From positions 4,722,501-4,786,500 of the forward strand of contig NZ_CP017024.1 in NCBI RefSeq assembly GCF_014522265.1: a stretch of DNA of 64,000 nt. The letters are read 5' to 3'. How positions within the stretch are numbered: position 1 is the stretch's first letter; each line of letters begins with the position of its first letter. Below the pieces are notes generated by a model. That model had not been told where the DNA came from and made no database searches. It worked only from the letters and a program-made list of their open reading frames with translations. Positions 39,924 through 59,395 of the stretch are shown in pieces. The stretch comes from Pseudomonas oryzihabitans (lineage in GTDB: Bacteria > Pseudomonadota > Gammaproteobacteria > Pseudomonadales > Pseudomonadaceae). The translations under genes were made by a program, and so were the position numbers.

Positions 39924-39992
39924 GCCGGTCGCACTGTTGGGCTTCGCTAGCGCTCAACCCAACCTACGAGACTCGCGCTTGGGCGTGACCTT

Positions 39993-41087: not shown

Positions 41088-41843
41088 TCACGCCGCCAGC
41101 GTCGCGCCGCCGTCCACCACGATGTCCTGCATGGTGATATGGCTGGCCAGGTCCGATGCGAGGAACAGTACGGTATTGGCGATCTCGTCGGGCTGGGCGA
41201 TCTTGCGCAGCGGGATGCCCAGCTTGAAGTCTTCCGGCAGGCCGTCCACCAGGCGCTGATAGCCCTCGGGCGAGCCGAGCATGCCGGCCAGCATGGGGGT
41301 CGCCGTGGAACCCGGCGAGACCACGTTGCAGCGCACGCCCGACCCGGCCAGTTCCAGGGCCACGCAGTGGCTCAGGGACACCAGCGCCGCCTTGGAGGTG
41401 CAGTAGCCGGCCATCTGCAGGCGCGGCACATGGGCGGCGTTGGAGGCGATGTTGACGATGGCGCCCTGGCCCTGGGCCTTGAACAGCGGCACCAGTTGGC
41501 GGAACAGGTAGAAGGGACCGGAGACGTTGACGTCCAAGAGCGCCTGCCAGTCATCCAGGCTCAGGCTGTCGCTGGTGCCCAGGCGCAGCACGCCGGCGCC
41601 GTTGACCAGCACGTCCAGACGGCGTTCTTCCGCCAGCAACGCCTGGCAGACTTCCTCCACCTGGGCCGCGTCGGCGACGTCCAGCAGTTGGGTACGAAAG
41701 GGATAGTCGCTCTCGGCGAATTGCCGGTCGAGGCCGATCACCTCGGCGCCCGCGGCTTGGAAACGCCGCGCCACCTGCAGGCCGATGCCCTGCCCTGCGC
41801 CGGTCACCCAGACGCGCTTGCCGGTGAAATCCAGTTGCGTCAT
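41088..41843 (-). CDS. entA: 2,3-dihydro-2,3-dihydroxybenzoate dehydrogenase
   Basis: A 251-residue short-chain dehydrogenase from ATG 41843. The start TGKRVWVTGAGQGIGLQVAR is close to E. coli EntA, with the NAD motif TGAGQGIG, the NGAG motif, Ser in VNIASNAAHVPRL and the Y-x-x-x-K in MAGYCTSKAAL. It oxidizes 2,3-dihydro-2,3-dihydroxybenzoate to 2,3-dihydroxybenzoate. It is last in the entC-entE-entB-entA operon, 11 bases after entB. entH, which follows entA in E. coli, is absent; the repeat array follows instead. Confidence 0.95.
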   Translation of the reverse strand: MTQLDFTGKRVWVTGAGQGIGLQVARRFQAAGAEVIGLDRQFAESDYPFRTQLLDVADAAQVEEVCQALLAEERRLDVLVNGAGVLRLGTSDSLSLDDWQALLDVNVSGPFYLFRQLVPLFKAQGQGAIVNIASNAAHVPRLQMAGYCTSKAALVSLSHCVALELAGSGVRCNVVSPGSTATPMLAGMLGSPEGYQRLVDGLPEDFKLGIPLRKIAQPDEIANTVLFLASDLASHITMQDIVVDGGATLAA

Positions 41844-41854
41844 CAGGACACTCC

Positions 41855-42715
41855 TCAGGCGCGCGCGCGCAGCAGATCCAGCCAGCCCTGCAGGGTCGGC
41901 TGGGCGGCCAGATCGGCGAAGGTCACGGGCAGGCCGCGCTTCTGCCACTCGCCCACCAGAGTCATGACCTGCACCGAATCCAGACCGAAATCGGTGAGGT
42001 TGTCGTCCAGCGCCGGCGCTTCGTCGTCAGCGTCCAGCAGCGGCTGGACCTGGGCACGCAGCCAGGCTTCGTCCAGGGTTACCGCGCCGCCGGTGACCTG
42101 GGCGGTGCTCAGGGTACTGCCGCAACGGGTCGCCACGTAGCGCAGGGCCATGCGGTGCTCTTCCTCGCTGAAGTCGGCCACGGCGTCGCCGATCAGGAAG
42201 GCCTGGATGTCCCGCATGAAGGCGTCGGTGCAGGTCGTCAGGCAACCGATATGGGCGTAGACGCCGCAGACGATCAGCTGGTCGCGCCGCCACTCGGTCA
42301 TCAGGTCCTGCAGGTTGGAACGGTGGAAAGCGCTGTAACGCCACTTGGTCAGCACCACGTCACCGTCCTTGGGCGCCAGCGCGTCCACCACCTGCTGCAG
42401 CGCGGGATCGGCCTGGGTCAGGCCCGGACCCCACATGTCGTTGAGCAGGGCGCGATCGGCTGGCGGCTGGTCGGTGGGCTGAGCGGTGTAGACCACCGGC
42501 ACGCCCCGGGCATCGGCCCAGGCGCGCAGCGCGGCGATGTTGGTCACCACCTGGTCGATCAGCGGGCTGCTGTCGCCATAGAACTCGACGAAATAGCGCT
42601 GCATGTCGTGGATCAGCAGCACGGCGCGGTCGGCCGCCGGTGTCCAGTCGACCTTGTTGGCGGGAAAGCCGTCGGGCTGAGGCAAGGGATAGGAAGCAAG
42701 ACGGGGGATAGCCAT
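41855..42715 (-). CDS. entB: Isochorismatase / aryl carrier protein
   Basis: A 286-residue two-domain protein (MAIPRLASYPLPQPDGFPAN). The isochorismatase domain (about 1-205) has the Asp of LIHDMQRYFVEF, the Lys of LTKWRYSAFHRS and the Cys loop CGVYAHIGCLTTCTDAFM. The C-terminal aryl carrier domain (about 210-286) has the phosphopantetheine Ser in LTDFGLDSVQVMTL. It removes pyruvate from isochorismate and then carries 2,3-dihydroxybenzoate to EntF. Length equals the usual EntB. It starts 8 bases after entE. Confidence 0.96.
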   Translation of the reverse strand: MAIPRLASYPLPQPDGFPANKVDWTPAADRAVLLIHDMQRYFVEFYGDSSPLIDQVVTNIAALRAWADARGVPVVYTAQPTDQPPADRALLNDMWGPGLTQADPALQQVVDALAPKDGDVVLTKWRYSAFHRSNLQDLMTEWRRDQLIVCGVYAHIGCLTTCTDAFMRDIQAFLIGDAVADFSEEEHRMALRYVATRCGSTLSTAQVTGGAVTLDEAWLRAQVQPLLDADDEAPALDDNLTDFGLDSVQVMTLVGEWQKRGLPVTFADLAAQPTLQGWLDLLRARA

Positions 42716-42723
42716 GGGAAACC

Positions 42724-44345
<1,622 letters not shown>

Positions 44346-44349
<4 letters not shown>

Positions 44350-45533
44350 GTGGGGTTCTCCTCGTCGAGCAAACCACAGGCGGCACGCATGGTGCCCAGT
44401 TTGGCGGTGACCTCGGCCCACTCCGCCGCCGGATCCGAGGCTTCGACGATGCCGGCGCCGGCGAACAGCCGCAGCCAGTCGCCCTGTACGGTGCCGCAGC
44501 GGATGGTGACGACCCACTCGCCGTTGCCCTGGGCATCGCACCAGCCGACCATGCCGGTGAACAGGCCGCGGTCGAAGGGCTCGATGCGCTGGATCAGCTG
44601 GCGCGCCGCCACCGTGGGAAAGCCGCAGACCGCCGGGGTCGGGTGCAGGCGGCAGGCGAGTTGCAGCGCCGAGGTCCGGCTATCGGCCAGCTCGCCGTCG
44701 ATGGCGGTGGACAGGTGCCACATGGCATTGGTGCTGAGCAGCGACGGCGCTTCGGGGACGTTCAGCCGGCTGCACAACGGCGCCAGTTGCTGGCGGATGT
44801 CCTCGATCACCAGGCGGTGCTCGTAGTGGTCCTTGCTGGAATCCAGCAGGTCGCGGGCCACCCGCTGGTCTTCCACCGGATCGGCCTGGCGCTTGGCGGA
44901 GCCCGCCAGGGGATTGGTGTATACCCGGGCGCCCTGCTTGCGCACCAGCAACTCGGGGCTGACCCCGACCAGCTCGCCGCCCTCGGCGAGGGGGATGCGG
45001 AATTGATAGCCGGTGGGATTCTGCCGCGCCAGATTGGCGAGGATGGCGTCCACGTCGGCGGGTTCGGCCAGTTGGATCTCCTGGATCCTCGACAGCACCG
45101 CCTTGCTCAGCTCGCCGCGGCGGAAGGCCTCGATGGCCTCCTCCACCGCCAGGCAGAAACCATCCGCACTGGGCAGGTTGCGCACCTCGCGCACCTGCGC
45201 CGGGGCGACTGGCGCGCTGCTGACCGGCGCCAGGCGAGCCACCCAGGCATGCTCCCGGGGCACATAAAGGCATGAGGGCCGGGTGGTATCGAAGGGAATG
45301 GCGCCCATGATCACCGGCTCGGCGATGCCGGCCTGGCGGGCACGGGCGAAGGCCTCTTCCACGGCGTGGAGGAACAGGCTGTCCCGGTGCGCACCGCCGC
45401 TGGCCGGTGTCTCGACCCGGGCACAGACGCCCCGCCCCTGCAGGACGCGATCACCCGACTGGAACAGGAATACGGCCTGTTCCCGACGATCGGCGTCTAC
45501 TTCTCCGACCCTCTCGGCCCTCTTGCTCGTCAT
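44346..45533 (-). CDS. entC: Isochorismate synthase
   Basis: A 395-residue chorismate-utilizing enzyme that converts chorismate to isochorismate with Mg2+. Motifs: general-base Lys in [72 protein letters not shown] and [20 protein letters not shown]. An AGAGG lies before ATG 45533. It is first in the entCEBA operon, and a Fur-box-like sequence 20-38 bases upstream predicts iron repression. It is divergent from fepB, as in E. coli. Confidence 0.95.
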
Positions 45534-45552
45534 TTCGATGAACCTCTACACG

Positions 45553-45571
45553 AATGATAATGCTTATCAAT
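45553..45571 (-). promoter_or_regulatory. Fur box at the entC promoter
   Basis: AATGATAATGCTTATCAAT matches the 19 bp Fur consensus GATAATGATTATCATTATC with strong dyad symmetry. It lies in a distinctly AT-rich 250 bp gap between the divergent entC and fepB genes. Confidence 0.8.
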
Positions 45572-45771
45572 AAACAGAAGCTAACTTACTGGATACCGGA
45601 AAGTCAATTCGTTAGGGACCGAACGATATTCCCGGCTATCCCGCAAATCCTTGAAATAAAAGACAAATACCCACCGGCCGGAAGGCGTCTGGCGATGAGC
45701 TCCTGCCCTTCCCCTGGCCGCATACCGGCGGCTTGACCGGAACGACTTGCTGCCAGGGAGCGCTTCTTTGA

Positions 45772-45790
45772 AAATGAGAGTGATTATCTT
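45772..45790 (+). promoter_or_regulatory. Fur box at the fepB promoter
   Basis: AAATGAGAGTGATTATCTT is a fair match to the Fur consensus, ending 17 bases before the fepB start. Confidence 0.65.
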
Positions 45791-45807
45791 ACAACCGGAA
45801 GGCGTTC

Positions 45808-46776
45808 ATGTTCAGCTTGTCGTCAGTGTTTCGCATTCTCACCACCCTGGTCCTCGCGACCCTGGCGCTGGGCGGTACCGCTCGGGCGGCGGACTGGCCC
45901 CGGCAGATCAGCACCGACGGCAGCCAGGTCACCCTGCCCGCCAAGCCGCAACGCATCGTCTCCACCAGCGTCACCCTCACCGGCGCCCTGCTCGCCATCG
46001 GCGCGCCGGTGGTGGCCAGCGGTGCCACCTCGCCCAACAACAGATTCGCCGATGACCAGGGCTTCCTGCGGCAGTGGGGCGCGGTCGCCAGGCAGCGTGA
46101 CGTGAAACGGCTGTACATTGGCGAAGCCAATGCCGAAGCCGTGGCCGCCGAGGCACCGGACCTGATCCTGGTCAGCGCCGCCGGCAACGACTCGGCGCTG
46201 CGCCTGGTCGAGCAACTCAAGGCCATCGCCCCGGTGCTGGTGGTGGGTTACGACAATCGCAGCTGGCAACAGGTGGTGGAATTGCTCGGTCAGGCCACCG
46301 GCCGCGAGGACGCCGCCAGCCAGGTGGTCGCCGATTTCGACCGGCGTGTCGCCGAGCTCAAGGTGCGCCTGCAGCTGCCGCCGCAACCGGTATCGGCCTT
46401 CGTCTACAACCCGGCGACGCGCCAGGCCAATCTCTGGACCGCCGCCTCTTCCCAGGGCCAGTTGCTGGAAAGCCTGGGCTTCCAACTGGCGGCGCTGCCG
46501 GCGGGACTGGAGACCGGCCATAGCCAGGGGCAGCGCCACGACATCCTTCAGCTCGCCGGCGAAAACGTCGCCACCGGTCTCACGGGCCAGACCTTCCTAC
46601 TATTCGCCGCGGACGCCAAGGAAGCCGAGGCGGTACGCGGCAATCCGCTGCTGGCGCACCTGCCGGCGGTCAAGGACAACCGTGTCGAAGCCCTGGGCGC
46701 CGAGACCTTCCGTCTCGACCCCTATAGCGCCAACCTGCTGCTGGATCGCCTGGAACAGCGCTACGCCAAGCCTTGA
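45808..46776 (+). CDS. fepB: Ferric enterobactin periplasmic binding protein
   Basis: A 322-residue periplasmic protein with a signal peptide ending near GGTARAADW. It resembles E. coli FepB closely along its whole length: [95 protein letters not shown] and [15 protein letters not shown]. It hands the ferric siderophore from the outer membrane receptor to FepD/FepG. It is transcribed alone and divergently from entC. Confidence 0.95.
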
Positions 46777-46843
46777 ATAGAGCAGTCGTGGCCAGGGCGG
46801 TCCGCCGATGCGGCCGCTCCTACAAGACATCGGTGTTTTGGTG

Positions 46844-46907
46844 ATCGCGGCCATGGGCCGCTCCTAGAGGTACCATCTAGCCTGTAGGAGCGGCCCATGG
46901 CCGCGAT
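46844..46907. repeat. Inverted REP pair
   Basis: ATCGCGGCCATGGGCCGCTCCTA and its inverted copy TAGGAGCGGCCCATGGCCGCGAT. A third half-copy (ATGCGGCCGCTCCTACA) lies at about 46808-46825. Confidence 0.85.
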
Positions 46908-46942
46908 CTGTCTTGTCCATCGCTGATCGCCATGAGCCCCCA

Positions 46943-46970
46943 GTGGAAAACGCTGCGCGGTTTTCCACGC
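46943..46970. repeat. GTGGAAAA palindrome module
   Basis: GTGGAAAACGCTGCGCGGTTTTCCAC is the same hairpin module found in the blocks at 29829 and 39993. Confidence 0.6.
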
Positions 46971-46993
46971 TACGCCAGGCGCACCGAAGCGGA

Positions 46994-48223
46994 TCAGGTG
47001 CCGAGGCTTTCAGCCCTACGCAGACCTCGGGCCAGCGTCCAGCAGAGGGCGGCCACCCCAGTGGCGACCAGGCCGAAGACGAACGCCGCCTGCGCCGGCA
47101 GCATCAGGCTGGCCAGGCCGCCGAACAGCGCCGCGCCAATGGCCTCGCCGCCGATGTTCTGCGCCGTCCATAGCGCATTGATACGCCCCAGCAGACGATC
47201 CGGCGTCAGGCGCTGGATCAGCGCGTACTGCACCAGGGCATTGAGCGCACCCAGGTAGCCGAACAGCACCAGGCACAGTGCGGACAGCCAGAAACCGGGC
47301 AGCAGCGCGAACACCGCCACCGCCAGAAAGGTCGCCACCGCGGTCATCAGCAGGGTACGCCCCGGGCGTGGCGCCTGGTTCAGTCGGCCACTGGTGAGGG
47401 CGCCGATGGCCGCACCCAGGGGCGCGGCGGCATAGAGCCAGCCCAGGTGTGCGGTATCCAGCCCCCAACTCTCGCCCAGCGACGGATAGAGCACCCGCAC
47501 CGCATTGGCCATGGTCACCAGGGCGCCGACCAAGGCAACCGCGCCCAGCAGGCGATTCTCGAACAGGAAGGCGATGCCGCCGCCCAGGGCCTCCCAGGGC
47601 GTCTCGCGCGGCTGCTCTGGCGGCGGCAACGGCGGCAGGCGCAACAGCACCAGCAGGGTGATCAGGGTGCCGCAGGCGGTCAGGCCATAGTTCCAGGCCA
47701 CGCCGCTCTGGGCGATCAGCAGGGTGCCCAGCGGCGGCGCGACGATGGCCGCCACCCGCACGCTGAGCATGTTCAGGGCACCGGCCTGCACCATGGATTC
47801 GCGACCGACGAGGATCGGCGTGACGGCCAGCAGCGCGGTGACACCGAGAGCGCCAAAGAAGCCGTCCCACAGCGCCAGCAGGTAGATGGCGGTCAGCGAC
47901 GGCTCGGGCAGGCTGGCGTTGACCGCCAGGCCGATGAAGCCCAGGCCGCAGATGGAGCGTGCCGCCAGGATCAGGCGGCGCCGCTCCAGGCGGTCGGCCA
48001 GTACCCCGCCGGTGAGCAGGCCGACGAACATGCCGATGCCGGCCATGCTCAGCGCCAGGCCCACCTTGAGCGGCGAATCGGTCAGCGCCTGGACCTGGAT
48101 GGGGATCGCCACGGCCAGCAGGCCGAGGGACAGCACGGACACCAGGCGGGCGATGAACAGGGTGCGAAAGGCAGCGTGGGACCTGAGCAGGCCGAAGTCG
48201 AGCAGGAAGGACGTCTTGGACAT
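46994..48223 (-). CDS. entS: Enterobactin exporter (MFS)
   Basis: A 409-residue, 12-helix transporter closely resembling E. coli EntS: AAFRTLFIARLVSVLSLGLL, GMFVGLLTGGVLADRLERRR, IYLLALWDGFFGALGVTALL, LYAAAPLGAAIGALTSGRLN and RINALWTAQNIGGEAIGAAL. EntS moves newly made enterobactin across the inner membrane. It is divergent from fepD and convergent with fepB, the arrangement seen in E. coli. The 126 bp before its start is shared with the fepDGC promoter. Confidence 0.94.
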   Translation of the reverse strand: MSKTSFLLDFGLLRSHAAFRTLFIARLVSVLSLGLLAVAIPIQVQALTDSPLKVGLALSMAGIGMFVGLLTGGVLADRLERRRLILAARSICGLGFIGLAVNASLPEPSLTAIYLLALWDGFFGALGVTALLAVTPILVGRESMVQAGALNMLSVRVAAIVAPPLGTLLIAQSGVAWNYGLTACGTLITLLVLLRLPPLPPPEQPRETPWEALGGGIAFLFENRLLGAVALVGALVTMANAVRVLYPSLGESWGLDTAHLGWLYAAAPLGAAIGALTSGRLNQAPRPGRTLLMTAVATFLAVAVFALLPGFWLSALCLVLFGYLGALNALVQYALIQRLTPDRLLGRINALWTAQNIGGEAIGAALFGGLASLMLPAQAAFVFGLVATGVAALCWTLARGLRRAESLGT

Positions 48224-48349
48224 GAATCACCGGAAAAACACAGGGGACGCTATCGAGCCGCCGGGGCAAGGCTGTTAGCATGTAATACAGACTATCATGT
48301 GTTAATACGCCTTGTTCTCATCCACTCCCCTTCCCGTCGGTCGCCGCGG

Positions 48350-49345
48350 ATGACCGGGCGCCGCCTCTTCATCCTCGGCTGCGCCGCGTTCCTGCTGTTG
48401 CTGGCGATGGCTGCCAGCCTGGCGCTCGGCGCCACCGCCATCCCGCTGGCCGACGCCTGGCAGGCACTGGGCCAGGGCTGCAGCGCGCCGACCTGCCTGA
48501 TCGTGCGCGAGGCGCGGCTGCCGCGGACCCTCGCCGGTCTGCTCGCCGGCGCGGCGCTGGGCGTGGCCGGCACCCTGATGCAGGCGCTGACGCGCAATCC
48601 CCTGGCCGACCCGGGCATCCTCGGCGTCAACGCCGGTGCCAGTTTCGCCGTGGTGCTGGGCATCGCCCTGTTCGGTGCCAGCGGTCCCGAGCAGTACCTG
48701 GGCTTCGCCTTCGGTGGCGCCCTGCTGGCCAGCCTGGTGGTACTGCTGGCCGGTATCGCCGGTGGCGGTGGCTTCAACCCGATGCGCCTGGTACTGGTCG
48801 GGGTGGCCCTGGGCGCCATGCTCGAAGGTGTCAGCTCGGGCATCGCCCTGCTCGATCCCCAGGTCTACGATCAGCTGAGATTCTGGCAATTCGGCTCCCT
48901 GGACGTGCGGCAGCTCGACCTGCTGCGCAGCGCCAGCCTGCCGGTGCTGGGCGGCGTGGTCATCGCCCTGCTGCTGGCTCCGGCGCTCAATGCCCTGAGC
49001 CTGGGCAGCGATCTGGCCGTGGCCCTCGGCACCCGGGTCCGCCAGACCCAGTTGCTTGGCCTGCTGGCCATCACCCTGCTCTGCGGGGCCGCCGCAGCGG
49101 CGGTCGGACCCATCGCCTTCGTCGGCCTGATGGTGCCGCACCTGGGTCGCTGGGCCATCGGCGAAGACCATCGCTGGCTGCTGCCCTTCGTCCTGCTGTT
49201 CACTCCCAGTCTGCTGCTGACGGCCGATATCGTCGGCCGCCTGCTGGTCACCAACGAGCTGCGGGTCTCGGTGGTGACCGCTTTCCTCGGCGCGCCGCTG
49301 CTGATCTGGCTGGCGCGCCGTCAGCGCCAGGGAGGCCGGGCATGA
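48350..49345 (+). CDS. fepD: Ferric enterobactin ABC permease FepD
   Basis: A 331-residue FecCD-family permease from ATG 48350 (MTGRRLFILGCAAFLLLLAM). Motifs: REARLPRTLAGLLAGAALGV, AGTLMQALTRNPLADPGILG, NAGASFAVVLGI, and GPIAFVGLMVPHLGRWAIGE near the C-terminus. About ten membrane helices are predicted. No strong ribosome binding site precedes this ATG; a GTG at 48299 in frame is possible. It overlaps fepG by 4 bases. The promoter region (48224-48349) has only a weak Fur-like sequence. Confidence 0.94.
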   Translation: MTGRRLFILGCAAFLLLLAMAASLALGATAIPLADAWQALGQGCSAPTCLIVREARLPRTLAGLLAGAALGVAGTLMQALTRNPLADPGILGVNAGASFAVVLGIALFGASGPEQYLGFAFGGALLASLVVLLAGIAGGGGFNPMRLVLVGVALGAMLEGVSSGIALLDPQVYDQLRFWQFGSLDVRQLDLLRSASLPVLGGVVIALLLAPALNALSLGSDLAVALGTRVRQTQLLGLLAITLLCGAAAAAVGPIAFVGLMVPHLGRWAIGEDHRWLLPFVLLFTPSLLLTADIVGRLLVTNELRVSVVTAFLGAPLLIWLARRQRQGGRA

Positions 49346-50340: not shown

Positions 50341-51143
50341 ACGACGCCCCCGCTTCGCGCCTGCACGCCGAGCGCCTGACCCTGGGCTACGGCCGCAAGC
50401 TGATCGCCGAGGACCTCTCGCTGACCATCCCCGATGGCGAGCTGACGGTCATCATCGGCCCCAACGGCTGCGGCAAGTCGACCCTGCTGCGCACCCTCAG
50501 CCGGCTGCTGGCGCCCAGCCAGGGCCAGGTCTGGCTGGACGGCCAGGCGATCCAGAGCTATCGCACCAAGGAGGTGGCCCGCCGCCTGGGCCTGCTGCCG
50601 CAGAGCTCCCAGGCCCCGGGTGACATCTCGGTGCGCGACCTGGTGGCTCGCGGGCGCTATCCGCACCAGACGCTGTTCGGTGGCGTGCGCGCCGACGATG
50701 AACGCGCGGTAACCCACGCCATGCAAGCCACCGGTGTCTTCGAGCTGGCCGACCGGGCGGTGGATACCCTCTCCGGTGGCCAGCGCCAGCGGGTATGGAT
50801 CGCCATGGCGCTGGCCCAGGAAACCCCGCTGCTGCTGCTCGACGAGCCCACCACCTGGCTCGACATCACTCATCAGATCGACCTGCTGGAATTGCTGGAA
50901 GACCTCAATCGCCAGCAGGGCCACACCCTGGTGATGGTGCTGCACGACCTCAACCACGCCTGTCGCTACGCCACCCACCTGGTGGCCATGCGCGACGGCA
51001 AGGTACTGGCCACCGGCCGCCCACGCGAGGTGGTCACCCCGGCGCTGATCAAGGCGGTCTACGACCTGGACTGCCTGATCATCGACGACCCGGTGGCCGG
51101 GACCCCCATGGTGGTGCCCCTGGCGCGGCGCTCGGCTGGCTAG
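50337..51143 (+). CDS. fepC: Ferric enterobactin ABC transporter ATPase FepC
   Basis: A 268-residue ABC ATPase from ATG 50337 (MNDAPASRLHAERLTLGYGR). Walker A is IIGPNGCGKSTLLRTL, the signature is DTLSGGQRQRVWIAMALAQE, Walker B is LLLLDEPTTWLDITHQIDLL and the switch His is in MVLHDLNHACRYATHL. It powers FepD/FepG. Its TAG stop and the TAG stop of the convergent entF share the palindrome CTAG (51140-51143), so there is no space between the two genes. Confidence 0.95.
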   Translation: MNDAPASRLHAERLTLGYGRKLIAEDLSLTIPDGELTVIIGPNGCGKSTLLRTLSRLLAPSQGQVWLDGQAIQSYRTKEVARRLGLLPQSSQAPGDISVRDLVARGRYPHQTLFGGVRADDERAVTHAMQATGVFELADRAVDTLSGGQRQRVWIAMALAQETPLLLLDEPTTWLDITHQIDLLELLEDLNRQQGHTLVMVLHDLNHACRYATHLVAMRDGKVLATGRPREVVTPALIKAVYDLDCLIIDDPVAGTPMVVPLARRSAG

Positions 51144-54100
51144 AGTCCTTTCAACGCCCGATTCAGCACCGGGCCGATCTGCGCCAGCTGGGCCGGGGCG
51201 ATGATGTCGACGTGGGCGCAGTCCACCTCGTGGGCCTGCAGGCGGGTGACCCAGGGCGCCCAGGTGGCCTTGACGTCCATTCCCGCCGGCAGGGTGCGGC
51301 GGGCGACGAACATCAGCGCCTCGCCGTCGAAACGCGCGCTGCGCGCCGTGGCCAGCAGCCGCACCGAATCGGCGTAGTTGCCCTCGATGGTGGCGAACAG
51401 CTCCGCCCCCTCCCCCAGCGCCGGATCGGCCAGGCCCTGCTGGGCGGCGAGGAACGCCTCGCGCTCGCGATTGACCTCGGCCAGCACTTCCGGGTCCAGC
51501 TCGCGCTGGCCTTCGCGCTCCTGCCAGTTCTGGGTTTCCGGCGGATAGGTGTCGAGCAGGCCGAGGAAGGCGACCTCTTCCCCTGCCGCCTGCAACCGCG
51601 CCGCCAGGCCCTGGGCCAGGGTGCCGCCCAGGGAATAGCCGAGCAGATGATAGGGGCCGTGCGGCTGTACCTCGCGCAGGGTGCGCAGATGGCGCTGGAG
51701 GACGGCTTCCAGATCGGCGCCCTGGGCCAGGGGACCGTCCGGACGCGGCGACTGGATACCGAGCAGCGACCAGCGCGGATCCAGGTGGCGCTGCAGCACG
51801 CTGAATTGCCAGGCGAAGCCCGAGGCCGGATGGAAGCAGAACAGCGTCGGGCCGTCGCCCGGGCGCAGCGGCAGCAGGGTCTCGAAGCCGGCCCGCGCCG
51901 CGCTGGCCGCGTCCTGCTCCAGCTGCCGCGCCAGGCGGGCAACACTGGAGGCCACCATGATCTGGCCGATGGATACCGACCGCCCCAGGCGCCGGCGCAG
52001 GTTGGCTGCCAGAGTCATGGCCAGCAGCGAATGGCCACCCAGGGCAAAGAAATCATCGTCCGCGCCGACAATGGCGCAGCCGAGCACCTCGGAAAAGGCC
52101 GCCGCCAGGTCGCTTTCCAACCCCGGCGCCAGGGGACGGCTCGCGGTCCTGGCCGCGCCCTGGGGCGCCGGCAGGGCCTTGCGATCCAGCTTGCCGGTGG
52201 CACCCAGGGGCAAGGCCTCCAGCTCGACCAGCGCCACCGGCACCAGATGCGGCGGCAGGCTTTCGCCCAGCCGCGCCCGCAGGCGCTCCAGGTCCAGCGC
52301 GGCACCCGGCTGGGCGATCAGATAACCCACCAGCTGGCGGGCATCGCCGCCGGTGGTAACGGCCGCCTCGCCCAGCACCCGGGCATGGGTGACCGCCTGG
52401 GCCACGCCGGGCAGCGCCAGCAGGGCATGATCGATTTCCGCCAGTTCGATGCGCTGACCCCGGATCTTCACCTGGTCGTCGCTGCGGCCCAGGTATTCGA
52501 CGACGCCCTCCGGCAGCCAGCGCGCCACGTCACCGGTGCGATACAGCCGCTCGCCCTGCCCGTCCGGCGCCGCGATGAAGCGCGCGGCGGTCAGCTCGGG
52601 ACGGCCCAGATAGCCATCGGCCAGCTGCACCCCGCTCAGATAGAGTTCTCCCGCCACACCCGGCGGGACCGGTCGCAAGCGTTCGTCGAGGACGTGCAGC
52701 CCGGTGTTCCACACCGGCTTGCCGATGGGCACGCTGCTGCCGGTGACGGCCGCCAGGGCGGCGCCGTGGGCCGGATGATAGGAGACGTCCACCGCGGCTT
52801 CGGTGGGGCCATAGAGGTTGTGCAGGGGCGCGCCGACGCGGCGCTCCCAGGTACGAGCCAGCTCGGTGGGCAGCGCCTCACCGCTGCAGAACACCTGGCG
52901 CAGGCTGGCGCAGCGGGCTACCGCGGCCGGCTCGTCCAGACTGGCGACGAAGGCCGCCAGCATCGAGGGCACGAAGTGCACCGTGGTCACCCGTTCGCGG
53001 GCGAACAGCTCCTGCAGCGCCAGGGGATCGCGATGGGCCTCGGGCGGCGCCAGGTACAGCCGGGCGCCCACCAGCAGCGGCCAGAAGAATTCCCAGACCG
53101 AGACGTCGAAGCTGCTCGGCGTCTTCTGCAAGACCGTGTCGCCGGCGCCAATGGGATAGCTGTCCTGCATCCACAGCAGGCGATTGACGATGGCGGCATG
53201 GTTGACCACCACGCCCTTGGGGCGGCCGGTAGAGCCGGAGGTATAGAGCAGATAGGCCGGATCGCCTGGACGCGGTCCGGCGAACACCGGCTCGTGGTCC
53301 AGCTCCTCCAGCGGCGCATCGAGAATCAGCACCTGATCCTCGCCCAGCGCCGGGAAGCGCTCGCGCTGGCTGGCATCGGTTACCAGCACCCGGGATCGCG
53401 CGTCGTCGAGCATCAGCTGCAGGCGCTCGTCGGGATAGCCGCTGTCCAGCGGCAGGTAGGCGGCGCCCAGTTCGAGCGTCGCCAGCAGCGCCAGGGACAG
53501 GAACACCGAACGCGGCAGGGCCACCGCGACGATGTCGCCCCGCCCTACCCCGGCATGGCTCAGCCGCTGGGCCAGCGCCAGCACCTGCTGGCGCGTCTCC
53601 CGATAGCTGAAGGCAAGCTGCAGATCGGCCAGTGCCGGCGCAGCAGGGCTGCGCGCTGCCTGGTCGGCGAGCAGGGTCGCCAGGGTAGCCTCGGGCAGCG
53701 ATTGTCTGGTGGCGTTGATCGCGGCCAGCCAATTCCGGTCCGCTGGCGCCAGCAGGTCCGCTGCGCCCAGGGCCAGACCGGGCTGCTCGGCGAATTGCCC
53801 GGCCAGCAGGCCGAACCGCTCCACGTGCCCCTGCAACAGATCGGCGGCGTAGCGCTCGGCGTTGCCCAGCAGCTTGATGTCCAGGGCGCCGCTGGCCTCC
53901 AGGTAGAGGGCGATCTCCAGGTCGCGCACCGGCCCCGAGGCCAGTTCGTGGGTGATGCCCGGCACCCCGGCGAAATCCAGGGCGAAATCGAACAGCTTGA
54001 GATTGATGACCGGTCCGGTCAGCGGCTCGGCATCGCCCGGACGGCCAAGATCGCGGGCGATCTGCTCGGCGTCGTAGCGCTGGTGACGGCGCACCTTCTT

Positions 54101-55069
54101 CAGCTCGGCGGCCAGCGCGGCGGCGAGTTGCGGCAGCGTCTGGGTCGAGTTAGTGCGCACGCCCAAGGGCAGGACGTTGAGCGTCGCGCCTCCGGATTTG
54201 AGCGCTACCGAACCCATGCGTCTCATGAAGATGAAGCCGGCGCTGAAGGCCGGCTGGCCACTGAGGCGCGCGAACCAGGTGGCGGCCAGGGCCACGGCCA
54301 GATCGGCTGGCGTCACCCCTTGAGCCCTGCCCTGCTCGGCGAGCCTGGTGAAGACCGCGGCGGGCACCCGCGCGCGGGCTTCCACCACCCGCGGCGTGGG
54401 TACCTGTCCCGACAGGCCGCCCGGTGCCAGGGACGCCGCCGGCGGCAAGGCCGCGCCACGCTCGCGCCAGAAGGCTTCGTCGCGCTCGCGGACGGCCGAC
54501 TGCTTATAGTCCTGATATTCGCGCACCACCTCGGCAAAGGACACGAAAGGCGAAGGCTCACTCGTCTCGCCGCGCATCGCGGCGCTGTACAGGGCCGCTA
54601 CCCGCTTGGCCAGGGCGGCGAAGCCATAGCCATCGATCAGCAAATGGTGATAGCGCTGGTACCAGAACAGATGATCGTCGCCCAGCTGGTAGATCCGGTT
54701 GAGCCACAGCGGACCGCCACTGGTGGCCCGCAGGTCGCCGTCGAGATCGGTGCGGATGGCCGCGCGCGCTACGCCTTTCGGATCGGCTGCCCGACGCAGG
54801 TCCAGCCACTCGGGCGCAGGGATGGCCATGTCGCTGTCGATCCACTGCACCAGCTCGCCCTCGCGCTCGGCGAACCTCAGCCGCAGACTGTCCATTTCCG
54901 CCAGGCCCTGGACGATGGCCGCCATCAGCGCCTGGGCGTCGATCGGCCCGCGCAGCTCGACCAGGTGGGCCACGGCGAAGGCGTTGGCATGGGGCGACAG
55001 CTGATCGGCCAGCCAGATGCCGGGCTGGGCAGCGACCAGCGGCAGCTCGGGTAAGCGTGAACGGGGCAT
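51140..55069 (-). CDS. entF: Enterobactin synthase component F (serine-activating NRPS)
   Basis: A 1309-residue nonribosomal peptide synthetase, C-A-T-TE, against 1293 in E. coli. The condensation motif is HHLLIDG (141-147). The adenylation domain has LLYTSGSTGRPKGVVVNHAA and the pocket residues D-V-W (FDVSVWEFF), H (TTVHFVPSM), F and S (VFCSGEAL), L (HNLYGPTEA), V-D (AAVDVSY) and K, which is the known serine code. The carrier Ser is in FFALGGHSLLAM. The thioesterase has YHLLGYSLGGTLAQ and a late His (HEVDCAHVDII). It makes the cyclic trimer of dihydroxybenzoylserine with EntB and EntE. The nearest upstream gene, mbtH, ends 20 bases before. Confidence 0.95.
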   Translation of the reverse strand: MPRSRLPELPLVAAQPGIWLADQLSPHANAFAVAHLVELRGPIDAQALMAAIVQGLAEMDSLRLRFAEREGELVQWIDSDMAIPAPEWLDLRRAADPKGVARAAIRTDLDGDLRATSGGPLWLNRIYQLGDDHLFWYQRYHHLLIDGYGFAALAKRVAALYSAAMRGETSEPSPFVSFAEVVREYQDYKQSAVRERDEAFWRERGAALPPAASLAPGGLSGQVPTPRVVEARARVPAAVFTRLAEQGRAQGVTPADLAVALAATWFARLSGQPAFSAGFIFMRRMGSVALKSGGATLNVLPLGVRTNSTQTLPQLAAALAAELKKVRRHQRYDAEQIARDLGRPGDAEPLTGPVINLKLFDFALDFAGVPGITHELASGPVRDLEIALYLEASGALDIKLLGNAERYAADLLQGHVERFGLLAGQFAEQPGLALGAADLLAPADRNWLAAINATRQSLPEATLATLLADQAARSPAAPALADLQLAFSYRETRQQVLALAQRLSHAGVGRGDIVAVALPRSVFLSLALLATLELGAAYLPLDSGYPDERLQLMLDDARSRVLVTDASQRERFPALGEDQVLILDAPLEELDHEPVFAGPRPGDPAYLLYTSGSTGRPKGVVVNHAAIVNRLLWMQDSYPIGAGDTVLQKTPSSFDVSVWEFFWPLLVGARLYLAPPEAHRDPLALQELFARERVTTVHFVPSMLAAFVASLDEPAAVARCASLRQVFCSGEALPTELARTWERRVGAPLHNLYGPTEAAVDVSYHPAHGAALAAVTGSSVPIGKPVWNTGLHVLDERLRPVPPGVAGELYLSGVQLADGYLGRPELTAARFIAAPDGQGERLYRTGDVARWLPEGVVEYLGRSDDQVKIRGQRIELAEIDHALLALPGVAQAVTHARVLGEAAVTTGGDARQLVGYLIAQPGAALDLERLRARLGESLPPHLVPVALVELEALPLGATGKLDRKALPAPQGAARTASRPLAPGLESDLAAAFSEVLGCAIVGADDDFFALGGHSLLAMTLAANLRRRLGRSVSIGQIMVASSVARLARQLEQDAASAARAGFETLLPLRPGDGPTLFCFHPASGFAWQFSVLQRHLDPRWSLLGIQSPRPDGPLAQGADLEAVLQRHLRTLREVQPHGPYHLLGYSLGGTLAQGLAARLQAAGEEVAFLGLLDTYPPETQNWQEREGQRELDPEVLAEVNREREAFLAAQQGLADPALGEGAELFATIEGNYADSVRLLATARSARFDGEALMFVARRTLPAGMDVKATWAPWVTRLQAHEVDCAHVDIIAPAQLAQIGPVLNRALKGL

Positions 55070-55089
55070 GGAAGACACAGGAACTCCAG

Positions 55090-55296
55090 TCAGGAAGGCA
55101 GGGAGGCGACCGGGCGGATATCGCGCCAGTGGCTGGCGAGCCAGTCGTCGCAGGCCAGGCGCGGCGCCGGCCCGAACACCGGTTCCCAACCGGTGGGCAC
55201 GGCCATGGCCTCTGGCCAGAGGCTGCATTGGCCGCGGGCATTGCGCAGGATCAACAGCACCTGAGCGGGATCGTCGAAGGGATTGGCGGCGTCCAT
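55090..55296 (-). CDS. MbtH-like protein (YbdZ homologue)
   Basis: A 68-residue MbtH-family protein (MDAANPFDDPAQVLLILRNA) with the family pattern QCSLWPEAMAVPTGW and a C-terminal WLASHWRDIRP. MbtH proteins bind NRPS adenylation domains and help them fold and act; YbdZ does this for EntF. A strong AGGAG lies 6 bases upstream. It sits between fes and entF, exactly as ybdZ does in E. coli. Confidence 0.92.
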   Translation of the reverse strand: MDAANPFDDPAQVLLILRNARGQCSLWPEAMAVPTGWEPVFGPAPRLACDDWLASHWRDIRPVASLPS

Positions 55297-55318
55297 CGGA
55301 GCTCCTGGAAAAGGGGGA

Positions 55319-56569
55319 TTAGCGAGGGGCGTCGGCGAGCAGGGGTTGCCAGAGGCGGACCAGACCGTCGAGCAGCCCGCCGCGCCACCAGAGGGCATCA
55401 TGGCCCCCATCGATCTCGCGATAGTCGAGGTCGTGACCCTGCTCGCGCAGGCGTGGGACCAGGGCGCGGGAGGCTTCGAGGATGGCCGGCTCGCGCAACC
55501 CGGCCTCGATGAACAGCCGCAAGGGATGCGTGCTCCCCTGCCCGCTCGCCAGTGCCTCGAACAGCCGTCCCGGCGCACCGCGCTGCGGCCACCAGAAGGA
55601 ACCGGACTGGCTCAGGGCGCAGCCGAAGCGCTCCGGCCAGTGCAGCGCGGCATAGAGCGCCGCCAGACCGCCGAAGCTCTGCCCGGCGACGACCGTCGAG
55701 GACGGTGACTGCGCATGAGGCGCCCAGTCGCGCACCTGCGGCAGCAGCTCTTCCTGCACCGCCAGCCAGAATTCGGTATTGCAGGGCAACTCGCTGCCAC
55801 GCAGGGCGCGGTCGCTGTTGTCGATCAGCAGATAGACCGCCTCCGGCAGTTGCCCGGCAGCGGTAAGCTGTTGCAGCGGCGCGCCGATGGGCATCGTCTG
55901 CGCCCAGAACTGCCCATCCAGCAGGATGGCCAGCGGCCGCTCCAAAGGGGTGGTATTACCGGTGGCAAAGAGCCATACCGGGCGGCTGTTTCCGAGCCGA
56001 GCACTCGTCCATTGGTACTGCTGCAGACTCGGCCAGGCCGCTGGCGCCAGGCTGCGGTCGGCATCAAAGGCCGCCCAGGCCGGCTGCGCAGGCGCCTCCG
56101 GCAGATGCACGCCCGACACCGCCAGCCCGCGCCCACCCTGCCAGGCACGCCGGGGGTTGAGCGGGTCGGCCTGGGCCAGGGGAAAGACGCTGCGCCACCA
56201 GAGGCGGATGCCCTGGAGATCGGACTGGGCCTCGCCTTCGAAGGGCGCCGGCTCCGCGCTGGGGATCAGGCAATAGCTGCCGCGCCAGCCGCCCTCCAGC
56301 TCGGTCTCCCAGGCCCAGACATCGCTGCCTGGCAGGCGCCGCAGACTCTGCGGCAAGCCCGGTTGATGATGGTCGGTGACCCCGGTGATGTTGAGCCAGA
56401 CCCGCCGGGTACGGGAGCGCTCGGCCAACCCCTCGGGATCGCGCCAGACAAAGGTCAGGCGATAGCGCCCGGCCACAATGGGTTCGATCAGCGGCGTGCC
56501 GCGACAGGCCACGGCCTGCCACCAGGGCTCGCTGCCGACATCGTCCCGCTGGAAGAGTGAATCTTTCAT
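55319..56569 (-). CDS. fes: Enterobactin esterase
   Basis: A 416-residue esterase from ATG 56569 (MKDSLFQRDDVGSEPWWQAV); ATG 56584 or GTG 56602 would add 5 or 11 residues and cannot be excluded. It has the Fes N-terminal domain (YRLTFVWRDPEGLAERSRTR onward) and a D-family esterase domain: LAILLDGQFWAQTMPIGAPL, VVAGQSFGGLAALYAALHWP (nucleophile G-Q-S-F-G) and the late His of EIDGGHDALWWRGGL. It cleaves the trilactone of ferric enterobactin in the cytoplasm to free iron. It ends 22 bases before mbtH. Confidence 0.92.
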   Translation of the reverse strand: MKDSLFQRDDVGSEPWWQAVACRGTPLIEPIVAGRYRLTFVWRDPEGLAERSRTRRVWLNITGVTDHHQPGLPQSLRRLPGSDVWAWETELEGGWRGSYCLIPSAEPAPFEGEAQSDLQGIRLWWRSVFPLAQADPLNPRRAWQGGRGLAVSGVHLPEAPAQPAWAAFDADRSLAPAAWPSLQQYQWTSARLGNSRPVWLFATGNTTPLERPLAILLDGQFWAQTMPIGAPLQQLTAAGQLPEAVYLLIDNSDRALRGSELPCNTEFWLAVQEELLPQVRDWAPHAQSPSSTVVAGQSFGGLAALYAALHWPERFGCALSQSGSFWWPQRGAPGRLFEALASGQGSTHPLRLFIEAGLREPAILEASRALVPRLREQGHDLDYREIDGGHDALWWRGGLLDGLVRLWQPLLADAPR

Positions 56570-56652
56570 CGCATCTCGGTACATCGTGGAAGAGATCGTC
56601 ACGGCATGCAGCGCCTTGGCCGACCTGAGTCCGACTCAGGTCGGCCTGAACC

Positions 56653-58842
56653 TCAGAAGTCGTAACGCGCCCCGACCATCACGCTGCGCGAGGGGCCCTG
56701 GAAGTTGAAGGTGGAAACCGAACCTACGCGCGACCAGTATTCCTTGTCGAGGAGGTTGTTCACGTCCAGGGTCGCGGTGAGCTGCTTGGTGACCGGATAG
56801 GAGAACTTGGCATCCACCGTGGCATAGCCGGGGGCGGACACGGTGACCCCGGAGGTCTGGTTGGTCTGGGAGAAATCGCTCATGGCGGTCACCCCGCCAC
56901 CGATGCTCAGCCCGGTCAGCGGACCACCCGCCAGGGTGTATTTGGTCCACAGCGAGGCCATGTGCTTGGGCATGGCTTCGAACAGGGTGTTGCCATCACC
57001 GCTGAGGTTCTGGGTATCCATGTAGGTGTAGCCGGCGAGCATTTCCCACTGCTCGGTGAGCTTGCCGCTGACCTCGATCTCGGCCCCCTTCACCCGCGTC
57101 TTGCCGGACGCTTCGGAATAGGTGGTGATCGCAAGACCATTGGCATCGAAAGGCGTGGACGCGCGATTCTCGTCGGTCAGCTGGAAGATCGACAGGCGCG
57201 CATTCATGTCGCCATTGAAGTAGCTGCCCTTGATGCCGACTTCGTACTGGTCGCCCTCGCGAGGATCGATGGCCTTGCCCTGGGCATCCAGCTCGCTCTG
57301 CGGCTTGTACACCTTGGAATAACTGGCATAGAGGGAATGGTAGTCGTCCAGGTCGTAGACGGTACCCAGATAGGGGGTGACGAAACCGCTGTGCTTCTGG
57401 CTCTCCCCCGCCTCGGCACCGCTGGCCAGGGTGGTGGTGTAGGCATCGCCCCTGTACCAGGAAACACGGGCGCCACCGATCAGCGCCAGGCGTTCGATGG
57501 GGCGGAAGGTGACCTTGGAATAGAGGCCGAATTCGCGATCCTCGCTGCTGAAGTCGGTCTGGTAGGCGCGCGCCGGCTTGGCGAAGCGGGTCGGCGAATA
57601 GCTGTTCACATTGACCGTACCCAGGACGCTGTTGCCGTTCTGGTAATCGGTGTCGTAGTGCTTGTAGTCGGTACCCACGACGAATTCGCTGACCTGACCC
57701 AGCGCCTCGAATGGCTGGCTGTAGCTGGCGTCGAGGGAATAGGCGTCCTGCTCGAAGTCCCGGGTGCTGGCACGAATGCTGGTATTGCCGTTGGCCTGCA
57801 CCGCCCCGCCGGTGAAGGCATAGAGGTAATCCGCCTCCCGGTGCGACGCCCGCGCGGCGATGCGCCCATAGCCGCCGTTATCGAACCTGTGGGTCAGCTC
57901 GAAGATGCCGTCGGTGGTCTTGCCGTCGAAGTAGTTCCAGTCCGCTCCCAGGAAGCGCGACTGGCTGAAGTCCAGCAGATTGCCCTGGGCGTCGGTGGGA
58001 TAGCCGTTGTGCGGGGTGAGGTTCTTGACCTGATGGATCAGGCCGAAGGAGATCTGGGTGGCGTCGGACAGGTCGATGTCCAGGTCGCCGTAGTAGCTCT
58101 GGTCGGTGTTGGCGTTGTAGTCCACCTCGCCATTGGTGTCGGCGCGAGAGGCGACGAAGCGACCGCGGACATTCTTGCTTTCGGTGAGCGGACCGGCCAG
58201 GTCGATCTCCTGGTAGTTGGTGTCCCAGGAGCCGTAGCGCCCGGTGATATGGCCCTGGAAGTCCTCGGTGCCGCGCTTGCGCACCATGTTGACGATGCCG
58301 CCCAGCTCGCTGGTGCTGTTGAACAGCCCCGAGGGCCCGCGCATGATCTCGACCCGGTCGAAGGGCGAAAGGATGGGCACGGTGCCGAAGATGCTGGTCA
58401 TGGGCGCCGGCAGGCCGTCGATGTTGTATTCGTCGTACTCGTAACCACGCGAATAGATGGAGGAACGCCCGCTGTCGTTGGTCAGCACCCGCAGGCCGGC
58501 GGTGGACTTGGCCAGCTCGTCCAGGGTGTTGAAGTTGCGGTCCTTGATGTAGTCGCTGGTGTAAGAGGTGATCGACTGGGGAATGTCACGCAGGGCAGCC
58601 GGCGTCTTGGTGCCCACGGTCGCCGAATCCACGGTATAGCCGCCGGTCTGTTCCGAGGGCGCCATGTCGTAGAGGCGGTTGCCTTCGATGGTCAGGGTGT
58701 CCAGTTCCGTGGCGTTCTGCTCGGCCACCGTGGCGGCCAGGGCCGTCAGCGGAAAGGGAATCAGCGCGCCGATCAGGAGCAGCTGACGGAGAGCCCCGCG
58801 GCGAAGGCGGACGGGCTGGCAGAGGGTTCCTTGGGTGTTCAT
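56653..58842 (-). CDS. TonB-dependent siderophore receptor (FhuE/FpvA-type, in the fepA position)
   Basis: A 729-residue outer-membrane receptor from ATG 58842, with AAGGAT upstream and a signal peptide ending near LTALAATVA. The plug starts LDTLTIEGN (TonB-box region) and continues with ALRDIPQSITSYTSDYIKDR, SSIYSRGYEYDEYNIDGLPA and VEIMRGPSGLFNSTSELGGI. The barrel ends in the FhuE/FpvA-like GPSRSVMVGARYDF with terminal Phe. There is no N-terminal signalling domain. This is a different receptor subfamily from FepA, though its position before fes and its Fur box suggest it imports the siderophore made here. Confidence 0.9.
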   Translation of the reverse strand: MNTQGTLCQPVRLRRGALRQLLLIGALIPFPLTALAATVAEQNATELDTLTIEGNRLYDMAPSEQTGGYTVDSATVGTKTPAALRDIPQSITSYTSDYIKDRNFNTLDELAKSTAGLRVLTNDSGRSSIYSRGYEYDEYNIDGLPAPMTSIFGTVPILSPFDRVEIMRGPSGLFNSTSELGGIVNMVRKRGTEDFQGHITGRYGSWDTNYQEIDLAGPLTESKNVRGRFVASRADTNGEVDYNANTDQSYYGDLDIDLSDATQISFGLIHQVKNLTPHNGYPTDAQGNLLDFSQSRFLGADWNYFDGKTTDGIFELTHRFDNGGYGRIAARASHREADYLYAFTGGAVQANGNTSIRASTRDFEQDAYSLDASYSQPFEALGQVSEFVVGTDYKHYDTDYQNGNSVLGTVNVNSYSPTRFAKPARAYQTDFSSEDREFGLYSKVTFRPIERLALIGGARVSWYRGDAYTTTLASGAEAGESQKHSGFVTPYLGTVYDLDDYHSLYASYSKVYKPQSELDAQGKAIDPREGDQYEVGIKGSYFNGDMNARLSIFQLTDENRASTPFDANGLAITTYSEASGKTRVKGAEIEVSGKLTEQWEMLAGYTYMDTQNLSGDGNTLFEAMPKHMASLWTKYTLAGGPLTGLSIGGGVTAMSDFSQTNQTSGVTVSAPGYATVDAKFSYPVTKQLTATLDVNNLLDKEYWSRVGSVSTFNFQGPSRSVMVGARYDF

Positions 58843-58932
58843 GGTGATCCTTGTGACCGTGGCGTTGCAGCCGACGCCGTGCACTTGAAGGCTGCTCTTC
58901 GCGGGATCCCGCGAGGGCCAGCACTTTAAATG

Positions 58933-58951
58933 ATAAAAACTCTCATTATCA
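58933..58951 (-). promoter_or_regulatory. Fur box at the receptor promoter
   Basis: GATAAAAACTCTCATTATC keeps both outer half-sites of the Fur consensus, with flanking AAT and AAATG extending the symmetry. It lies about 90 bases before the receptor start and probably controls receptor, fes, mbtH and entF together. Confidence 0.75.
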
Positions 58952-59131
58952 AATGTTACGGTAAGCAATAGCTGTTCGCATCGCGAATGCCAGGCAGCCG
59001 TGATCCACGTCCAGAGGTCAGGACGGCATCAGGAAGGAATGCAGGAAAGAGGCATCACCGGGCCGAAAAGGTCCGGTCACAGGATCGGGCTGATCCTGAA
59101 CGGGCCGCGCAGTGCGAAGCCTGACGGTGGT

Positions 59132-59395
59132 TTAGAGGCCGGAGACCGCCGGGGTCTTGGCTGCCACCTGGCCGATCACCGGACTGGGCAGCCGGCAGAC
59201 GATTTCGCCGATGGCGTTCATTCGCGCCAGGCCACCGTCACCCTTGCAGGCGTGATAGTCGGCGAGGTGTTCCGAGGGCGAGTTGCGCAGGCCCTGATCG
59301 ACAGCGATCACCAGCGCGATGACGCCCAGGCCCAAGGCGACGATTTCGAGCGTGCTGCGGGCACGATACCAGTGGATCGGTCGCGAAAGGCTCAT
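59132..59395 (-). CDS. Small membrane-anchored protein of unknown function
   Basis: An 87-residue protein (MSLSRPIHWYRARSTLEIVA) with one membrane helix (about 15-33, ALGLGVIALVIAVDQGL) and a periplasmic part with two Cys (YHACKGDGG and GEIVCRLPSP) that could form a disulfide. GGAGCC lies just before the ATG. No family is recognised; coding character and the ribosome binding site support it. Confidence 0.55.
   Translation of the reverse strand: MSLSRPIHWYRARSTLEIVALGLGVIALVIAVDQGLRNSPSEHLADYHACKGDGGLARMNAIGEIVCRLPSPVIGQVAAKTPAVSGL

Follow-up and report, generated by a model that had tools for sequence, protein, structure and literature searches.

An intact and probably mosaic enterobactin locus in Pseudomonas oryzihabitans

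The locus considered here is an enterobactin-type ent-fep locus in a stretch of 64,000 nucleotides of Pseudomonas oryzihabitans DNA, positions 4722501–4786500 of the single 5.05-Mb contig NZ_CP017024.1 (assembly GCF_014522265.1), hereafter called the window, to whose first base all coordinates refer unless a contig or handle is given. Its best-known counterpart is the ent-fep locus of Escherichia coli K-12 (NC_000913, 609–630 kb), which stands under Fur-type control. A second described relative is the turnerbactin cluster (tnb) of Teredinibacter turnerae, in which, by its description (PMC3795760), TnbF is a protein of 2399 amino acids (aa) with two modules, and TnbE and TnbA found their best match in P. 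psychrotolerans L19. Genome papers have attached several names to such genes among the pseudomonads: Fes, EntF, EntS and FepB, C, D and G of P. psychrotolerans CS51 are tabled as enterobactin genes (PMC7142416), a turnerbactin cluster is assigned to P. oryzihabitans RIT370 (PMC4400433) and to Pseudomonas sp. 102515 (PMC6676639), and for P. loganensis matches to frederiksenibactin, enterobactin, "viobactin" and turnerbactin are given (PMC12344725).

While the existence of these genes was already known, the patchwork that they form and the change of receptor within it are new; the literature searched, outside of which most subscription journals lie, yielded no paper on a mosaic origin or on the receptor change. 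The locus of the window is an intact enterobactin locus found across the P. oryzihabitans group, foreign to most Pseudomonas and yet no simple copy from an enterobacterium. It is probably a mosaic with a fixed gene order, in which an enterobacterial entF-entS-fep set, an entCEBA operon from other proteobacteria and a Pseudomonas receptor would together serve to make, export and recover enterobactin.

Gene content and predicted product

Thirteen genes, all open, fill positions 41088–58842 of the window, as listed here with identities to E. coli K-12 from BLASTP.

41088–41843, minus strand: entA, 2,3-dihydro-2,3-dihydroxybenzoate dehydrogenase, 251 aa (NF006074, 387 bits, cut-off 312; 61% to E. 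coli)
41855–42715, minus strand: entB, isochorismatase with aryl carrier protein, 286 aa (PF00857, PF00550; 54% to E. coli; carrier serine motif DFGLDSVQ)
42724–44349, minus strand: entE, 2,3-dihydroxybenzoate-AMP ligase, 541 aa, a TTG start being assumed (NF008192, 916 bits, cut-off 783; 62% to E. coli)
44346–45533, minus strand: entC, isochorismate synthase, 395 aa (TIGR00543, 319 bits, cut-off 225; 45% to E. coli)
45808–46776, plus strand: fepB, ferric-enterobactin periplasmic binding protein, 322 aa (NF008200, 435 bits, cut-off 205; 62% to E. coli)
46994–48223, minus strand: entS, enterobactin exporter, 409 aa (NF007792, 532 bits, cut-off 324; 58% to E. coli)
48350–49345, plus strand: fepD, permease, 331 aa (NF007760, 472 bits, cut-off 428; 64% to E. 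coli)
49342–50340, plus strand: fepG, permease, 332 aa (NF007759, 473 bits, cut-off 422; 63% to E. coli)
50337–51143, plus strand: fepC, ATPase, 268 aa (NF007606, 432 bits, the best family but below its cut-off of 497; 69% to E. coli)
51140–55069, minus strand: entF, single-module nonribosomal peptide synthetase (NRPS) with condensation, adenylation (Ser), carrier and thioesterase domains, 1309 aa (Pfam domains; 59% to E. coli EntF over 1300 aa)
55090–55296, minus strand: mbtH / ybdZ, 68 aa (PF03621, 60 bits, cut-off 27; 48% to E. coli)
55319–56569, minus strand: fes, enterobactin esterase, 416 aa (NF007758, 553 bits, cut-off 222; 52% to E. coli; GQSFGG and DGGHDAL motifs kept)
56653–58842, minus strand: TonB-dependent receptor of the FpvA/FauA/FhuE family, 729 aa (TIGR01783, 308 bits, cut-off 224)

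Read on the minus strand, the order is receptor, fes, mbtH and entF, followed by fepC-fepG-fepD in the opposite orientation, entS, fepB again opposite, and entC, entE, entB and entA, the 3' ends of entF and fepC overlapping by 4 bases. This is the order and orientation of E. coli K-12, the receptor excepted, and no match to fepE, entH or entD was found in the 64-kb window at E values up to 1. An earlier note on this DNA, which had described the E. coli arrangement without these three genes, is confirmed on this point, every one of the 13 genes being open at its place; 13 homologous genes in one shared order are not a product of chance.

Seven of the proteins (EntA, EntE, FepB, EntS, FepD, FepG and Fes) pass the equivalog cut-offs of NCBIfam. 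EntF finds its own family best, with 1807 bits under a cut-off of 2400, and EntC matches first DhbC (409 bits, cut-off 486) and then EntC (382 bits, cut-off 624), both below the equivalog threshold; EntB, for which NCBIfam gave no enterobactin equivalog match, was assigned through its Pfam domains and BLAST, and MbtH through Pfam. On the combined evidence of families, Pfam domains and motifs, the entCEBA set for making and activating 2,3-dihydroxybenzoate is complete, and FepB, FepDGC, EntS and Fes are all present, with FepC under its equivalog cut-off.

EntF consists of one condensation-adenylation-carrier-thioesterase module by Pfam, and its match to the solved structure of E. coli EntF spans the whole protein; its catalytic motifs are kept, and the pocket motifs FDVSVWEF, HFVPS, VFCSGEA and NLYGPTEAAVDVS, which we take to hold the specificity-code positions, are the same as in E. 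coli, so that the serine pocket previously proposed for this protein stands. Because EntF is a single module with the serine-pocket residues of E. coli, its product should be enterobactin. EntC, EntB and EntA would make 2,3-dihydroxybenzoate, which EntE would load onto the EntB carrier; the single EntF module, aided by MbtH, would join it to serine, and the EntF thioesterase would cyclotrimerise the result to enterobactin, the cyclic trimer of 2,3-dihydroxybenzoyl-serine. A phosphopantetheinyl transferase encoded elsewhere in the chromosome would replace EntD: each of 14 genomes out of 14, three of which lack the ent locus, has a single enzyme of the 4PPT_N family, encoded outside the locus, which is therefore available to EntB and EntF, both of which it can presumably serve. 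EntS would then export enterobactin, the FpvA/FhuE-type receptor with FepB and FepDGC would return the ferric complex, Fes would free the iron, and Fur would turn the locus on under iron shortage.

In the window genome the only other EntF match above 100 bits lies at C1:360619-362379, 4.4 Mb along the contig, in an AMP-binding and carrier protein. No PF13434 hydroxylase was found in this genome, nor, apart from one such AMP-binding and carrier protein with an open frame about 1349 aa long, any further NRPS of note; enterobactin may be the sole NRPS siderophore of this genome, siderophores of non-NRPS type lying outside the search. Among the relatives, six (G002, G003, G005, G006, G010 and G011) carry extra large NRPS genes near a PF13434 hydroxylase, and G007, G008 and G009, like the window's own genome (G000), are without both. 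A pyoverdine label for this second NRPS cluster of the six relatives was not adopted; a P. psychrotolerans NRPS cluster is called taiwachelin-like in one of the genome papers (PMC6676639).

Fur-like boxes and the linked receptor

Three sites resembling the Fur consensus stand before the transcription units.

45550–45574: Fur-like double box before entC, 15 and 14 of 19 positions agreeing with the consensus
45770–45788: Fur-like box before fepB, 15 of 19
58932–58950: Fur-like box before the receptor-fes-mbtH-entF unit, 15 of 19

The four best positions in the 64 kb (14–15 of 19) all fall within the locus, two of them overlapping at entC and one each at fepB and the receptor, while none of 12 Markov-simulated windows reached 14 of 19. 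Across eight aligned group members, the window counted, the core of the entC box, AATGATAATGCTTATCAAT, does not vary, and seven share an identical fepB box, from which the eighth departs by one substitution; the DNA between these two boxes has diverged while both have been kept. These patterns point to regulation by Fur.

The linked receptor gene occupies the position that fepA has in E. coli, yet it is oriented like fes. It scores 334 bits with NF049960 and 318 bits with NF007447, both under the equivalog cut-offs, has FpvA as its best PDB match (318 bits), and falls in the family of FpvA, FptA, FauA and FhuE; with the FepA family (NF010048) it reaches 33 bits against a cut-off of 493, and it is not a FepA. 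Among the best 120 of its 650 relatives, the named ones of at least 62% identity belong to Pseudomonadaceae, barring one Marinobacterium (62%), two more at that level come from records titled Pseudomonadales bacterium and compost metagenome, and other gammaproteobacteria follow at lower identity.

Since none of the nine plug-domain receptors of the window genome is FepA-like at 1e-80 and one is Fiu-like, the strongest candidate for ferric-enterobactin uptake is the linked receptor, its rival being the Fiu-like protein. That the Fiu-like or some other receptor takes up ferric-enterobactin, while the linked one serves other siderophores, is a serious possibility, though on balance a doubtful one. 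The ligands of FpvA, FptA, FauA and FhuE, to whose family the linked receptor belongs, are not known to be tris-catechols; the Fiu-like catecholate receptor (G000:C1:2842775) is present in the window genome at 492 bits, below the cut-off of 686; and P. japonica has two FepA-family receptors away from its locus. Yet the linked receptor has a Fur-like box of its own and a position in the operon, P. japonica has the same receptor type beside fes, which shows the linkage to be conserved, and no FepA-family receptor was found in the window genome at 1e-80.

Ancestry and distribution of the parts

In the tree tests "Enterobacterales" denotes rows with an E. coli-type locus, ten of them in the entCEBA test. 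The order around Pantoea was searched as defined in GTDB, where it may be wider than in NCBI, and G882, G952, G901 and G825 serve as outgroups despite sharing that order. Rows were chosen by hand (38 of 120 listed EntF homologues, 743 having been found, and 25 of 120 listed EntE homologues, with 2125 found); eight of 58 EntF rows were dropped first and 31 were kept for the EntF tree, and OUT_PsG144 was omitted from the set of single-gene tests that included entA, entB, entE and entC.

Each of the four entCEBA proteins rejects a clade with the ten Enterobacterales rows in the approximately unbiased test (p-AU 0.004 for entA, 0.001 for entB, 0.007 for entE and 0.003 for entC), and jointly they do so with p 5e-9 and a log-likelihood difference of 87; in the joint tree Agrobacterium and Roseibium together form the sister group of the four Pseudomonas rows (support 98/96). 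A 47-row EntE tree likewise places an 11-row Pseudomonas clade among Chromobacterium, Microbulbifer, Rhizobiales and others, and the test rejects its union with the 11 rows of Enterobacteriaceae and Erwiniaceae (p 0.0025), the Pectobacterium and Brenneria rows standing outside the group tested. On these trees a single enterobacterial donor does not account for entCEBA, a result that is lost when all outgroups are distant.

For the other genes, clades with the Enterobacterales rows are supported at 100/100 for EntF and 100/99 for EntS, each with two outgroup rows only, at 100/96 for FepC, and at 89/88 for fepBDGC jointly. The Pseudomonas EntF rows form one 10-row clade (100/99) in the 31-row tree, and entF with entS rejects a Pseudomonas-Methylosinus clade (p 3e-5) under the distant outgroups common to both data sets. 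In the best trees of several partitions Pseudomonas falls among the Enterobacterales rows with Serratia outside (bootstrap 85–91), by which transfer from within Enterobacterales is favoured, not proven.

As to its distribution, the locus is present in ten of the 13 examined genomes of the genus (the P. oryzihabitans group), FepB being 88–95% identical in nine of the 12 others than the window's own, and the order is unchanged in the nine relatives read, though G008 has it split over two contigs; EntF and a FepB of this kind are both absent from the three genus members with the most distant RapA (83–85%). The FepB model exceeds its cut-off in 16 of 398 Pseudomonadaceae genomes, ten of them among the 13 of the genus and six among the 385 outside it. 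Of those six, P. japonica (G366) alone has an E. coli-like FepB with the full locus, whereas in the other five the stretches read show fepBDGC with no entF linked to it. Scattered Pseudomonadaceae (G144, G181, G205, G221 and G396) have fepDGC together with a FepB of a second type, about 40% identical, and no linked entF in the parts that were read. The model finds 21 of 247 sampled genomes in the order of Pantoea; across the class it finds one of 369, the window's own, and this sample is uninformative as a guide to the donor. In the named collection 259 stretches encode a FepB relative, and of the best 80, 73 stand under Enterobacterales names while seven belong to P. oryzihabitans, P. rhizoryzae and strains allied to them; protein searches (best 120 of 743 EntF and best 120 of 2125 EntE homologues) also returned EntF or EntE from a number of further pseudomonads, among them P. 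eucalypticola, P. silvicola and P. massiliensis.

The horizontal acquisition proposed earlier can thus be upheld in part. The locus is foreign to most Pseudomonadaceae, the E. coli-like FepB with a full locus occurring in one of 385 genomes outside the genus; but it was not acquired at the level of the strain, since all ten examined genomes of the oryzihabitans branch possess it, and a single enterobacterial donor does not account for entCEBA. Composition was dropped as a sign of foreign origin, being uninformative because the GC content of the locus and that of its third codon positions fall inside the window's own range or a little higher. A comparison of rapA with entF gives a weak signal of vertical inheritance in the group (Spearman 0.33, p 0.025), the rapA tree being poorly resolved, and in an empty-site test the three locus-free genomes had no ent genes downstream of rapA, nor did anything there beyond rapA match the window, so that the test yielded no clean empty site.

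The order and direction of the transfers might be pictured as follows. The entF, entS and fep genes would be kin of the E. coli-type Enterobacterales locus, with a content like that of Serratia; the entCEBA operon of a different proteobacterial lineage would have entered, probably as a unit, at the fepB/entC promoter; and the receptor would have been recruited from Pseudomonas. The mosaic would have been complete before the loci of P. oryzihabitans and P. japonica parted, and the locus may then have spread or been lost patchily among Pseudomonas. The fully specified version, with an enterobacterial entF-fep-entS, an entCEBA exchanged in place and a pseudomonad FpvA-type receptor turned into a dedicated ferric-enterobactin receptor replacing FepA, is put forward only tentatively.

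Several observations, besides those on the Fiu-like and P. japonica receptors above, weigh against this account of the locus, its product and its control. The Enterobacterales clade is not rejected by entCEBA when Azospirillum and Methylosinus are the only outgroups (p 0.44) or when these are G882, G952 and Rhodovulum (p 0.19); the signal rests on taxa with entCEBA but no comparable entF, entS or fep, and because of this the mosaic is well supported without being closed. Constraining the Enterobacterales rows to one group yields p values of 0.229 for EntF, 0.143 for EntF with EntS, 0.059 for fepBDGC and 0.107 for all six, and with distant outgroups fepBDGC yields p 0.33 for a clade with Enterobacterales and 0.30 for Pseudomonas with Rhodovulum. 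Taken one by one, FepB, FepD and FepG lend the clade little signal (p 0.42, support 29/0 and p 0.40, respectively), and FepB alone was discarded as a donor marker (p 0.03, rising to 0.25 once three long rows are removed, 30 rows being held together in that test). The best trees of FepB, FepG, FepC and EntS, each built alone, do not unite P. japonica and P. oryzihabitans, although one Pseudomonas clade is not rejected (p 0.36, 0.34, 0.16 and 0.31, respectively). The search found no Fur box with three mismatches or fewer, the predicted boxes carrying four to five, and no clear Fur-like box in the entS/fepD gap, where the best site has 11 of 19. Lastly, the product is a prediction from sequence.

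Two other histories have to be set beside the mosaic. The Pseudomonas and Enterobacterales loci could be sisters that go back to a shared ancestor or to some third group outside the sample, with entCEBA later replaced in Enterobacterales and no enterobacterial donor at all. This would accord with the trees holding the Enterobacterales rows together, which are not significantly worse (p 0.059 to 0.229), and with the FepB model being uneven in the order of Pantoea too; it is nevertheless unlikely, as the best trees nest Pseudomonas among the Enterobacterales rows and the FepB model is so sparse in Pseudomonadaceae and across the class. Still less credence can be given to one transfer of the whole locus from an enterobacterium, followed by codon adaptation, with the odd signal of entCEBA as a tree artefact: the identical gene order, the EntF, EntS and FepC clades with Enterobacterales and the lack of rejection under distant outgroups only would fit it, but the single and joint rejections by the four ent proteins, the 47-row EntE tree and the pseudomonad family of the receptor all speak against it. 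A mosaic remains the preferred account.

At the left border, between rapA and entA, the window carries the following repeats.

39937–41080: direct repeats of about 249 bases, four copies with partial ones

The C-terminal tail of the window's rapA (37090–39864) differs from about residue 878, nine relatives in the group having a 950-aa open frame, and this tail matches the relatives as a separate piece, reflecting either a frame change or a sequencing error. The entA gene adjoins rapA in G000, G002, G003, G006, G007, G008, G009 and G011, and G010 stops at a contig end; in Pseudomonas sp. EpS/L25 (G005; L051, L052, L185) rapA and the ent locus share a contig but are about 1.3 Mb apart. The flank on the receptor side is more variable among relatives than that on the rapA side; in the window about 1.4 kb (58951–60370) separate the receptor from a chemotaxis gene, with three open frames that have no NCBIfam match. 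The description of the rest of the window as ordinary Pseudomonas was checked over a few flanking genes.

Comparison with known systems

The turnerbactin cluster resembles the present locus in its CEBA operon, in TnbE and TnbA being near P. psychrotolerans, and in its product, a trimeric catechol with serine, as is predicted here; it differs in a two-module TnbF that adds ornithine and in its genes for a resistance-nodulation-division transporter, and the part of its gene table covered here has no row for FepBDGC. That the cluster makes turnerbactin or another mixed catecholate of the 2,3-dihydroxybenzoate-ornithine-serine type can hardly be correct, despite the label in three genome papers (PMC4400433, PMC6676639 and PMC12344725) and the 2013 finding on TnbE and TnbA (PMC3795760), because in place of a second, ornithine module the window's EntF has a single one with a serine pocket, and the next EntF-like place in the genome is the one 4.4 Mb off. 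The EntF of Pseudomonas sp. 102515 aligns over residues 2–1309 (95%) with the 1309-aa single-module protein; the label thus fits the entCEBA operon and not the product, TnbF having two modules and EntF, both here and in that strain, one. The one-module EntF thereby corrects the turnerbactin label of a plant-associated group, for which nitrogen-fixation benefits have been argued in print on that label, reportedly in a paper of Liu et al. from 2017.

By content, the nearest complete locus is that of Serratia proteamaculans (NZ_MT039221.1, L264), which is also without fepE, entH and a local entD and whose EntF and EntS are 61% and 62% identical to those of the window. It differs in a divergent FepA (69% to E. 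coli) and in an entCEBA that groups with the other Enterobacterales rows. The record is titled as a plasmid, but the locus may be chromosomal, ligA and gltX being near it. Ent-like loci with an NRPS gene of about 8.4–8.5 kb, fes, mbtH, entS and fepB also occur on two plasmids, one from Serratia grimesii that is typed as conjugative (L267) and one from Pantoea (L266).

P. japonica (G366, L063 and L064) shares the order, the receptor type and the side of the entCEBA tree, and it differs in an EntF of 64% identity, in its two FepA-family receptors elsewhere, and in having the locus and rapA on different contigs.

The locus can be seen as a testable case of a biosynthetic locus that keeps a fixed gene order through the exchange of its parts, and in which the receptor changes family beside an unchanged siderophore. 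Measured against E. coli K-12, it shares the order and orientation of fes, mbtH, entF, fepC-G-D, entS, fepB and entC-E-B-A along with their domain structure; it departs from it in lacking fepE, entH and entD, in a receptor of another family that is turned round, in identities of 45–69%, and in an entCEBA operon apparently drawn from another lineage.

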